Below are positions 5,666-6,752 of a DNA stretch of 6,752 nucleotides, in pieces. Made by a program: the position numbers and the translations under genes. The notes beneath the pieces were generated by a model, which saw nothing but the letters and a program-made list of their open reading frames with translations, did not search any database and was not told the DNA's origin. The stretch covers positions 1 through 6,752 of the forward strand of contig SLIC01000082.1 of the NCBI GenBank assembly GCA_007135845.1, written 5' to 3'. The first letter of the stretch is position 1. Each line of letters starts with the position of its first letter. This stretch comes from Candidatus Brevefilum sp. Its GTDB lineage: Bacteria; Chloroflexota; Anaerolineae; Anaerolineales; Anaerolineaceae.

Positions 5666-6103
5666 TTAAAATTCCATCAAAATGGTCACCGGACCGTCAT
5701 TGACCAGCCCCACCTGCATATGGGCGCCAAAAACACCGGTCTGTGTTGCCACACCGCGATCGGTGAGTGTTTCAGAAAAAGCAGTCACCAGGGGCTCAGC
5801 CAGGTCGGGCTTAGCCGCTCCAATAAAGGAAGGCCGTCGGCCGCGGCTGGTATCGGCATACAGTGTAAACTGTGACACCACAATTACCTCACCCCCCACA
5901 TCCAGCACAGACAGGTTCATCTTCTCATCTTTATCCTCAAAAATGCGCAGGTGAGCGATCTTTTCCGCCAACTGCTCGGCTGTCGCCATGGAATCACCTG
6001 GCGCCACACCCACCAGGATCACCAGACCCTGCCCGATCCTGGCCACAACCTCACTCTCCACTGTGACCTGTGCCTCTTTAACCCGTTGAATAACTGCTCG
6101 CAT
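5666..6103 (-). CDS. dtd: D-aminoacyl-tRNA deacylase
   Basis: Dtd removes D-amino acids (and Gly mischarged on tRNA-Ala) from tRNA in the cytosol, a chirality proofreading step outside the synthetases. The 145 residues from MRAVIQRV match the family length. Both active-site signatures are present: VSQFTLYAD with SQFT at 77-80, and NDGPVT at 135-140, whose G137-P138 forms the cross-subunit Gly-cisPro motif; the enzyme therefore should be a homodimer. The ATG at 6103 is chosen because GGAG lies at 6113-6110 with a 6-nt spacer. The frame is open further to a TTG at 6133, but that extension is encoded by heptad-repeat DNA and lacks family similarity. It diverges from rnd across a repeat-rich 318-bp gap, converges with folD, and ends at a clear terminator. 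Confidence 0.97.
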
Positions 6104-6119
6104 GATGATCTCCGTAAAT

Positions 6120-6189
6120 AGCTGAAAGCTCAAAGGTGAAAGCTGATAGCTGATAGCTGATAGCTGATAGCTGATAGCTGATAGCTTTA
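6120..6189 (+). repeat. Heptanucleotide tandem repeat (AGCTGAT), six perfect copies plus degenerate flanks
   Basis: Six identical AGCTGAT units occupy 6141-6182. Three degenerate units precede them (AGCTGAA 6120-6126, AGCTCAA 6127-6133, AGGTGAA 6134-6140) and AGCTTTA (6183-6189) follows, giving ten units in phase. The array ends 16 bp upstream of the dtd start codon, just beyond its Shine-Dalgarno. Copy number is likely to vary between strains because the central copies are identical. On the minus strand the units (ATCAGCT) contain no stop codon in any frame. Confidence 0.95.
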
Positions 6190-6237
6190 AGTATCAACAT
6201 AATTCATATTTCCGCAAAATTGTTCTTCTCATCGCCG

Positions 6238-6243
6238 ATTATA
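6238..6243 (-). promoter_or_regulatory. Candidate -10 box for dtd
   Basis: A perfect TATAAT followed by C, as at udk, rnd and the methyltransferase, lies on the minus strand 134 bp before the dtd ATG. No strong -35 is visible. If it is used, transcripts would start near 6231 and carry the whole AGCTGAT array in a leader of about 130 nt. Confidence 0.35.
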
Positions 6244-6403
6244 GCACCAAACATAATCGTTCTCACCATAGTCGCCTTACTCCTTATTGCCTAATAACTA
6301 ATCGCCTACTTCCTGATGACCTCATTCCTAATCGCCTCATACCCAATACCTCATACCTGATACCTGGTTCCTACTCACCATTCCCTTTTCACCATTCACT
6401 AAC
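6244..6403 (+). repeat. Degenerate heptad / 15-bp composite repeat array upstream of rnd
   Basis: The tract is built of 7-bp units of consensus NCCTNAT, such as GCCTAAT, TCCTGAT, ACCTCAT, TCCTAAT, GCCTCAT, ACCCAAT, ACCTCAT and ACCTGAT. Between 6274 and 6333 units alternate 7 and 8 bp, making four 15-bp blocks (starts 6274, 6289, 6304, 6319), three of which begin GCCT. Two fainter blocks (6244 and 6259, the first ending TAATC) may extend this. From 6334 the period is a plain 7, ending in CACCATT, CCCTTTT, CACCATT, CACTAAC (6376-6403). Together with the AGCTGAT array it fills most of the 318-bp dtd-rnd gap, in which I see no gene. Confidence 0.75.
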
Positions 6404-6415
6404 CTAAGCTATAAT
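6386..6415 (+). promoter_or_regulatory. Leaderless promoter of the rnd-like gene
   Basis: TATAAT (6410-6415) is perfect and lies 6 bp before the ATG at 6422, so the expected start point is the A of the start codon. TTTTCA (6386-6391; 4 of 6 matches, spacing 18) is a plausible -35 and is supplied by the last units of the heptad array. There is no Shine-Dalgarno between the box and the ATG. Confidence 0.6.
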
Positions 6416-6421
6416 CACCCT

Positions 6422-6752
6422 ATGCCGAAATCATTACAGCACACTGAACTAGTCTTTGTAAACCAACCCGCACAACTGCGCCTGGCCGCCAGGGAACTGG
6501 CTGCGCAGGATGTCCTCGCGGTTGACACCGAATCGAACAGCCTTTACGCCTACCGTGAACAGGTCTGCCTGATCCAGTTCTCATCGCGGGATAAAGACTA
6601 CCTGATCGATGCCTTGGTCTTGCCGGACCTCTCTCCACTGGAAGAAATCTTCAAGACGAACCGCATCCTGAAGGTGTTTCATGCCGCCGAATACGACCTG
6701 ATCTGCCTGTTCCGTGACTATGGTTTCCGCTTTAACTACCTGTTCGACACAA
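6422..6752 (+). CDS. rnd: Ribonuclease D-type DEDD 3'-5' exonuclease, N-terminal part
   Basis: The frame is open from the ATG at 6422 to the right edge (110 codons); the C-terminal half, including any HRDC domain, lies outside. The visible part is the start of a DEDD exonuclease fold: Exo I LAVDTESNSLY with metal ligands D35 and E37, the strand QVCLIQFSS (47-55), YLIDAL (60-65), and Exo II VFHAAEYDL (85-93) with D92. This order and spacing is that of RNase D, which trims tRNA and other stable RNA 3' ends in the cytosol using two metal ions. The fourth ligand and the Exo III Tyr/His that would confirm the DEDDy class are beyond the window. The gene appears to be leaderless. It starts 18 bp after the upstream heptad array. 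Confidence 0.88.
   Translation, partial: MPKSLQHTELVFVNQPAQLRLAARELAAQDVLAVDTESNSLYAYREQVCLIQFSSRDKDYLIDALVLPDLSPLEEIFKTNRILKVFHAAEYDLICLFRDYGFRFNYLFDT

Follow-up and report, generated by a model that had tools for sequence, protein, structure and literature searches.

A partly decayed array of 7- and 8-base repeats between the presumed promoters of dtd and rnd in a Chloroflexota bacterium, and the facing order of related intergenic arrays

The window, by which we mean the whole stretch of 6,752 nucleotides analysed here, comes from an uncultured Chloroflexota bacterium. Its dtd protein is nearest to those of Anaerolineaceae MAGs, with 79% (L001) and 75% (L002) identity, and the closest dtd relative found reaches 81% (G022); this last identity, together with the arrays that they share, suggests that the window probably belongs to the genus of genome G001. 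The gene order at the array is dtd on the minus strand, a gap at 6104-6421, and rnd on the plus strand, a gap being throughout a stretch between open frames of at least 100 codons, which may contain RNA genes. The dtd profile search was run on 5666-6100, the ATG start codon lying at 6103-6101, and the open reading frame list also offers a longer TTG start at 6133. The rnd fragment matches profile positions 2-99 of 363 in TIGR01388 and, as expected for a fragment, its 60.2 bits fall below the whole-protein cut-off of 298.95. No Rfam family was found at the gathering threshold. At the cuts used, the window holds four heptad arrays, all within the gaps 6104-6421 and 482-692 and all four mostly non-coding. 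The features are as follows.

5666-6103, minus strand: dtd, D-aminoacyl-tRNA deacylase, left border of the gap (NCBIfam TIGR00256, E 9.9e-55, above cut-off).
6422-6752, plus strand: rnd, ribonuclease D, right border of the gap, truncated by the window end (NCBIfam TIGR01388, E 2e-16).
6238-6243, minus strand: TATAAT box with an upstream TG (TGCTATAAT), presumed -10 element of dtd; exact box in 12 of 12 relatives.
6410-6415, plus strand: TATAAT box six bases before the rnd ATG, presumed -10 element of a leaderless rnd transcript; also in 12 of 12 relatives.
6266-6403, no strand assigned: repeat array, C-rich on the plus strand, the core of the finding, with NCCTNAT and TTCACCA anchors; lags 7 and 15 exceed shuffles over 6244-6403.
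6275-6342, no strand assigned: composite part of this array, 8+7 (15 bp); anchor steps 7, 8, 15, 7, 8, 7, 8, and Tandem Repeats Finder period 15 at 6289-6358.
6335-6403, no strand assigned: mainly heptad part of the array, ACCTNAT passing into TTCACCA units; lag-7 match 0.61-0.68 in 45-bp windows from 6324.
6114-6200, no strand assigned: opposed array of AGCTGAA/AGCTGAT units, weakly G-rich on the plus strand, in the presumed dtd leader (Tandem Repeats Finder).
510-553, no strand assigned: G-rich arm of a second opposed heptad pair, TGGTGAA units, gap 482-692 (array finder).
649-702, no strand assigned: C-rich arm of the second pair, TTCACCA units (array finder; Tandem Repeats Finder 662-689, TCACCAT).

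The sequence-only reading of this DNA had proposed periods of 7 and 15 at 6244-6403, and both stand out there from 5000 dinucleotide-preserving shuffles. At lag 7, 74 of 153 positions match (shuffle mean 44.8, z 5.36), and at lag 15, 68 of 145 (shuffle mean 42.5, z 4.84); lag 14 gives z 4.06 and lag 8 z 0.81, and the best z over lags 2-39 was equalled by none of 1000 shuffles. The 7-bp period that it called strict is in fact mixed. The CC anchors lie at 6275, 6282, 6290, 6305, 6312, 6320, 6327, 6335, 6342, 6349, 6356, 6363 and 6370 (a list that omits the overlapping anchor at 6343), in steps of 7, 8, 15, 7, 8, 7, 8, 7, 7, 7, 7 and 7, followed by steps of 8, 5, 1 and 8 at the end. These steps agree with its further description, a 7+8 alternation in the first half and heptads after it. 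In 45-bp windows lag 15 is ahead for starts at 6244-6308, the two tie at 6316, and lag 7 is ahead from 6324. Tandem Repeats Finder gives period 15 at 6289-6358 (4.7 copies, 71% match) and periods 14 and 7 at 6319-6365. No anchor at a step of 7 or 8 was found in 6244-6265, where the steps are 19 and 9. The array at 6266-6403 is real and decayed, and it carries the mark of a heptanucleotide simple sequence repeat, tandem seven-base units beyond chance, with 8-base units mixed in.

Contrary to the claim that this array fills the dtd-rnd gap, the gap also contains the opposed AGCTGAT array at 6114-6200, which is the cleaner of the two. Tandem Repeats Finder reports it with periods 14 and 21 at 6118-6186 and period 7 at 6120-6186, and over about 6114-6198 it has 21 G against 12 C.

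The C-rich array sits between the two TATAAT boxes. A promoter scan gave 3 matches where shuffles averaged 1.0 (sd 0.9), a weak signal by itself, and it is box conservation, rather than the scan score, that leads us to infer that the boxes are the promoters of dtd and rnd. Sixteen genomes of the genus have dtd, and the 12 with a divergent rnd on the fetched piece form the assessable set (rnd was not found on the piece in L261, L270, L272 and L275). Both exact boxes are present in all 12, and the plus-strand box lies 6-7 bases before the rnd start in each (L262-L269, L271, L273, L274 and L276, the start being extrapolated by 3-4 codons in L265 and L273), a position that makes rnd seem leaderless throughout the genus. 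Upstream of dtd in L017 and L026, inspection by eye showed a similar facing arrangement with a period of about 8, in which short repeats of the GTAAACAG kind are opposed to ones like CTGTTTAC.

In contrast to the boxes, the array turns over. It was detected between the boxes in 4 of the 12 assessable relatives (L262, L264, L265 and L274), in units and lengths that differ among them. The other eight have both boxes and no detected array, some with short heptad-like remnants below the cut (L271, by eye). All four arrays are C-rich on the rnd strand, as in the window, and L261, in which rnd was not found, also has a C-rich array of this kind; shared descent or constraint could account for this agreement. 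The distance between the boxes is 172 bp in the window and 42-176 bp over the 12 relatives, with values of 77, 101, 155 and 176 where an array is present and of 42, 57, 59, 68, 75, 95, 95 and 116 where none was detected, which lends no support to the earlier suggestion of selection for spacing. From these comparisons the dtd and rnd promoters appear to be fixed and the array optional. If the boxes are promoters, the array lies upstream of both transcripts and explanations at the level of RNA would not apply to it.

Arrays elsewhere in the source genome and enrichment between genes had been predicted, and both were found in the genomes of relatives. The two nearest relatives, G001 and G002, were sampled first. 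In 400 kb of G001 we counted 10 mostly non-coding periodic regions at lag 7 and 6 at lag 14, with 0-1 at lags 6, 8, 9, 13 and 15; three more lag-7 regions lie in open frames, one of them a large array that itself makes an open frame. In 161 kb of G002 there are 8 such non-coding regions at lag 7 (six small contigs, L142-L146 and L150, are wholly N, and N was excluded from the array finder). At the same cut, no lag-7 region was found in 400 kb of Anaerolinea thermolimosa (G005), and a looser cut yielded 1 array there, in coding sequence. The arrays are dispersed and lie mainly between genes, 36 of 46 being mostly non-coding in G001 and 9 of 11 in G002. Sites resembling (GGTGAAT)3 with at most 3 mismatches occur at 598 places in all 16 genus genomes (backwards control 10), and with at most 2 mismatches in 30 of 147 genomes of the family, namely the 16 of the genus and 14 of the other 131 (control 3 places). 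The array of the window thus appears, by its unit types and by the strand rule described below, to be one of an intergenic heptad population of the group.

The 15-bp superstructure is not confined to this gap. In searches for CCTNAT units with at most 2 mismatches, in which places overlap, the 7+7+7 spacing was found in 15 of the 16 genus genomes (344 places, control 33), 8+7+8 in 10 (133 places, backwards control 1) and 8+8+8 in 6 (49 places, 38 of them in G019, control 0); G001 and G002 have heptads and lack the 8+7 form. In 42-bp windows, a self-match of 62% or more at lag 15 turned up in 6 of 730 gaps, and at lag 7 in 44. Five of those six lie outside the window, and by eye four carry the CCT-type 8+7 form (L192, L198, L208 and L209; not L154). 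Based on this, the composite appears to be a common state of one unit that can take 7 or 8 bases and slip between them.

Three further observations concern these arrays. Read post hoc on the G strand and set in a common register, the units TGGTGAA, AGGTATT, AGCTGAT, AGTTATT and TGGTAGC all have G second and T fourth. Array gaps in three different genus genomes (L151 15204-15472, L247 1349-1714 and L250 1360-1621) have a common inverted repeat that resembles the CIRCE operator, so that they would represent one presumed groES gap that keeps its arrays. A hairpin-like piece beside or inside AGCTGAT-type arrays is 93.5% identical over 31 bp between L184 14791-15095 and L261 1936-2330, and similar pieces were noted by eye in L241, L264 and L268.

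The two pairs of opposed arrays in the window both have the G-rich member on the left and the C-rich member on the right, and opposed pairs elsewhere nearly always follow this order. Counted without gene calls, opposed pairs within 250 bp of each other run G-rich then C-rich in 44 cases and C-rich then G-rich in 1; the ratio is 39:1 within 150 bp and 45:1 within 400 bp. By source, the 44:1 is made up of 18 v 0 in the long stretches and contigs of G001, G002 and G022, 2 v 0 in the window, 10 v 1 at picked sites of the genus and 14 v 0 at picked sites outside it. The sole exception, L241, was kept in the count; its gap runs off the edge of the locus, and a short insert separates its two arms. 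The 560 kb of G019 held no opposed pair in the gene-free count and speak neither for nor against the rule; a looser gap cut gave two gaps there with both types, both G then C. A gene-calling artefact was considered as the source of the order, since C-rich strands often read as open frames and G-rich ones contain many stops, and was rejected when the order held on the recount without gene calls.

Counting by gaps gives the same picture. Among 63 unique array gaps in 1.77 Mb, including 22 short loci picked by unit or pattern, all 18 with both types have the G-rich array on the left, or 17 of 17 once L220 is dropped, which came from a search for the G-then-C order; L219 and L220, both from that search, are absent from the gene-free count and from the arm-likeness test below. 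An earlier, looser gap count found 22 of 24 in order and 2 against (13 of 14 in G001, 3 of 4 in G022, the rest in order), and its repetition with a stricter shift gave 15 of 15. A strict two-arm search with exact units found the order G then C in 2 of 16 genomes and the reverse in 0 of 16, too few to weigh. Genus sites picked by a single unit yielded 13 array gaps, of which 4 are G-then-C, 1 is C-G-C and 8 are of one type, and the 21 array gaps at sites picked by unit outside the genus comprise 12 G-then-C, none reversed and 9 of one type; all five array gaps at dtd loci are of one type. The trend is weaker in the 45 one-type gaps, where the expected side is the nearer one for 17 of 26 G segments and 17 of 24 C segments. 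By gene orientation, a hand count of 33 pairs, leaving out L220 and the C-G-C case, gave 14 convergent, 6 divergent, 12 tandem and 1 unknown.

Base composition and inverted repeats in the gaps were compared as well. In G001 the left half exceeds the right half in skew in 135 of 280 array-free gaps versus 25 of 31 array gaps, and in 2 of 2, 3 of 5, 4 of 5 and 1 of 2 array gaps of the other sets. Exact inverted repeats with a stem of 9 or more, given as G-C v C-G, number 27 v 24 in G001, 21 v 12 in G005, 11 v 5 in G022, 23 v 24 in G019 and 37 v 57 in mixed loci for array-free gaps; for array gaps the figures are 8 v 2 in G001, none in G005, 0 v 1 in G022, 1 v 0 in G019 and 1 v 0 in mixed loci. 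Copying of one arm from the other by fold-back was rejected, since arms from the same gap resemble each other just slightly more than arms taken from different gaps (mean likeness 15.5 of 21 against 14.7, permutation p 0.057, 17 gaps) and so are not simple copies.

Intergenic heptads are known from several bacteria. The STRR of heterocystous cyanobacteria are heptanucleotide intergenic repeats with a CCCCART-type unit, and the kinship with them that the sequence-only reading raised holds for the kind of repeat, heptanucleotide and intergenic, and fails for its sequence: the units differ, and the nearest dtd relatives are Anaerolineaceae rather than heterocystous hosts. The closest parallel is with the GGGAATC-type heptads of Xanthomonas and the GGGGA(C/T)T heptads of Nostoc (Rehm et al. 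2015, PMC4692102), which lie nearer the 5' ORF irrespective of ORF orientation, change in length while usually keeping their type between species, are tied to G4 formation, and occur as convergent pairs, 70 in one Xanthomonas genome, 75 in another and few in Nostoc. The arrays described here likewise are mostly intergenic, vary in length at orthologous gaps, lie near the 5' ORF (a tendency in one-type gaps, 44 of 45 in pairs) and form convergent pairs, and groES, among the marked repeat-associated genes of that report, is also presumed to border one of our array gaps. The facing order is the same rule in both. The systems differ in that the report describes one G3-4 unit able to form G4, preferred in four copies and under-represented between divergent ORFs (PMC4692102), whereas the arrays here have many units, several of them without GGG (AGCTGAT, AGTTATT and TGGTGAA), the 7/8 register, a Chloroflexota host and 6 facing pairs between divergent genes. 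The array of the window has no GGG in four successive units of its G strand, unlike the four consecutive tracts of at least 3 G that mark the G4-forming heptads.

Other systems are more distant. The TAACTGA repeats of Beggiatoaceae (MacGregor 2015, PMC4679880) are also intergenic heptads in short arrays, with one favoured unit placed mostly just upstream of start codons, unlike the array here, whose units vary and which lies upstream of presumed promoters. In the same phylum, Chloroflexus aurantiacus has likewise heptad-derived satellites, (GATAGRA)n, for which the portion of the report cited gives one unit and mentions neither pairing nor polarity (PMC6749651). Geobacter metallireducens has elements of four or five tandem heptads, some multicopy classes being described as paired sites; these differ from the arrays here in being putative global regulatory elements with conserved units that occur within genes as well as between them (PMC2700814). 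Among the matches listed, none dealt with heptad arrays in Anaerolineae or with a 7+8 composite, subscription literature being mostly outside their scope.

On balance, it seems likely that the array is a heptad microsatellite born by slippage, partly decayed and tolerated as a dispensable spacer between promoters. The array would have grown by replication slippage in seven-base steps; one base may have been gained early in one unit, giving it an 8-base neighbour, after which the 7+8 dimer may itself have been duplicated by slippage as a unit of 15 bases. Mrazek's idea that a length of 7 nt mirrors a polymerase contact and favours slippage (as told in PMC4679880 and PMC4692102) would suit this origin. 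The growth by slippage and subsequent decay first suggested for this array fit what is seen at the orthologous gap, where some relatives have arrays of other units and lengths and others have none detected. Since the array would sit between the divergent -10 boxes and ahead of both presumed transcript starts, in a place that tolerates changes in length, it most likely has no dedicated function beyond that of a variable spacer. Slippage is probably its source; against this reading stand the facing order of 44 in 45, which pure neutral slippage would not predict, and the constant C-rich character, on the rnd strand, of the arrays between the boxes.

The facing order could instead be set by translation signals, if the G-rich strand, with its stops and its Shine-Dalgarno-like and start-like triplets, were tolerated after genes and purged before starts. 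When read on the sense strand the rule does become G-rich after stops and C-rich before starts, a placement reported by Rehm et al. for the 50 bp next to ORFs (PMC4692102). We nevertheless hold this to be doubtful. The 14 convergent gaps, in which no start is involved, are all G then C; the order is kept for arms far from genes, such as the C arm of L236 at 515 bp from the right gene; it is independent of gene calls (44 of 45); and the C array of the window lies upstream of both presumed transcript starts.

The place of the array between two divergent boxes also invites the idea that its units are binding sites of a regulator acting on both promoters, with the spacings of 7, 8 and 15 bp putting them on recurring helix faces, and there is precedent in the post-transcriptional binding that MacGregor proposes for TAACTGA repeats upstream of starts (PMC4679880) and in the annotation of the Geobacter elements as putative global regulators (PMC2700814). 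Steps of 7 and 7+8, however, do not match the helical repeat of about 10.5 bp, arrays are present in many gaps, unit sequence varies among orthologues, and 8 of the 12 assessable relatives retain both boxes with no array detected, or with remnants as in L271. Regulation of this kind is improbable.

Growth at DNA ends would also account for the facing order. Heptads would be added, or would slip, at G-rich 3' ends at breaks or fold-backs, and joined ends would then face each other, as with telomeres. The order itself (44 of 45 pairs, in the genus of G001 and in further genomes of the family) and the 7/8 variation of an ATTAGG-like unit point this way, as does the placement of the arms in the 12 paired gaps outside the genus: in 7 of them no more than 15 bp separate the left ORF from the start of the G arm, and in 8 the end of the C arm from the right ORF. 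No enzyme, break map or intermediate was seen, though, the variety of units counts against a fixed RNA template, and the slight likeness of arms within a gap (p 0.057) speaks against simple fold-back copying, and we regard such growth as very unlikely. We give a similarly small chance to its broader form, in which the facing order would be the footprint of a directional DNA process and not of selection, G-rich 3' ends being extended by 7 or 8 bases in a self-templated, telomere-like manner and joined head to head in both Chloroflexota and Xanthomonas, with the dtd-rnd array as one scar.

Equally small is the chance that the opposed arrays form the arms of a functional stem-loop, be it a hairpin, a cruciform or a terminator. 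Their opposition, the stem-loop potential that Rehm et al. note for such pairs (PMC4692102) and the 8 to 2 excess of G-C over C-G inverted repeats in the array gaps of G001 are consistent with it; on the other side, the complementarity of the arms is weak, the gap at 6106-6405 folds no better than its shuffles (z -0.12), and no terminator-like site was found in 6080-6460. Finally, the view that a small inverted-repeat transposable element gave rise to each set of G-array, spacer and C-array, whose opposed arms do look like terminal inverted repeats, is close to refuted, since no spacer is common to the 130 array gaps (33,650 bp) compared with their arrays masked, defined shared ends of the MITE or REP kind are lacking, the 32 matching pairs are by eye overlapping or orthologous loci, leftover units, short generic hairpins or RNA genes, and the largest linked set, of 20 gaps, is chained by different matches. 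ARAGORN found tRNA-Lys in L107 and L209 and tmRNA in L173 and L258 among the array gaps, and none in L091 or L208.

In most bacterial genomes that are rich in repeats, heptanucleotides were reported to outnumber every other class of long simple repeat (Mrazek, as told in PMC4679880). The present analysis adds to them a third phylum, varied units and the 7/8 register, the polarity rule being already known from Xanthomonas, and at this locus it goes beyond the earlier reading by adding the opposed array, the place of the C-rich array between two boxes and the facing polarity. A polarity of 44:1 that holds with varied units and in every gene orientation, and that matches the report from Xanthomonas and Nostoc, suggests a cause tied neither to one unit nor to G-quadruplexes. 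The origin of the order thereby becomes testable, as selection at gene borders versus a strand-directed DNA process, and the dtd-rnd gap, where promoters appear fixed and arrays come and go, would be a clean site at which to measure the effect of an array. It is the polarity that we consider the part worth following.
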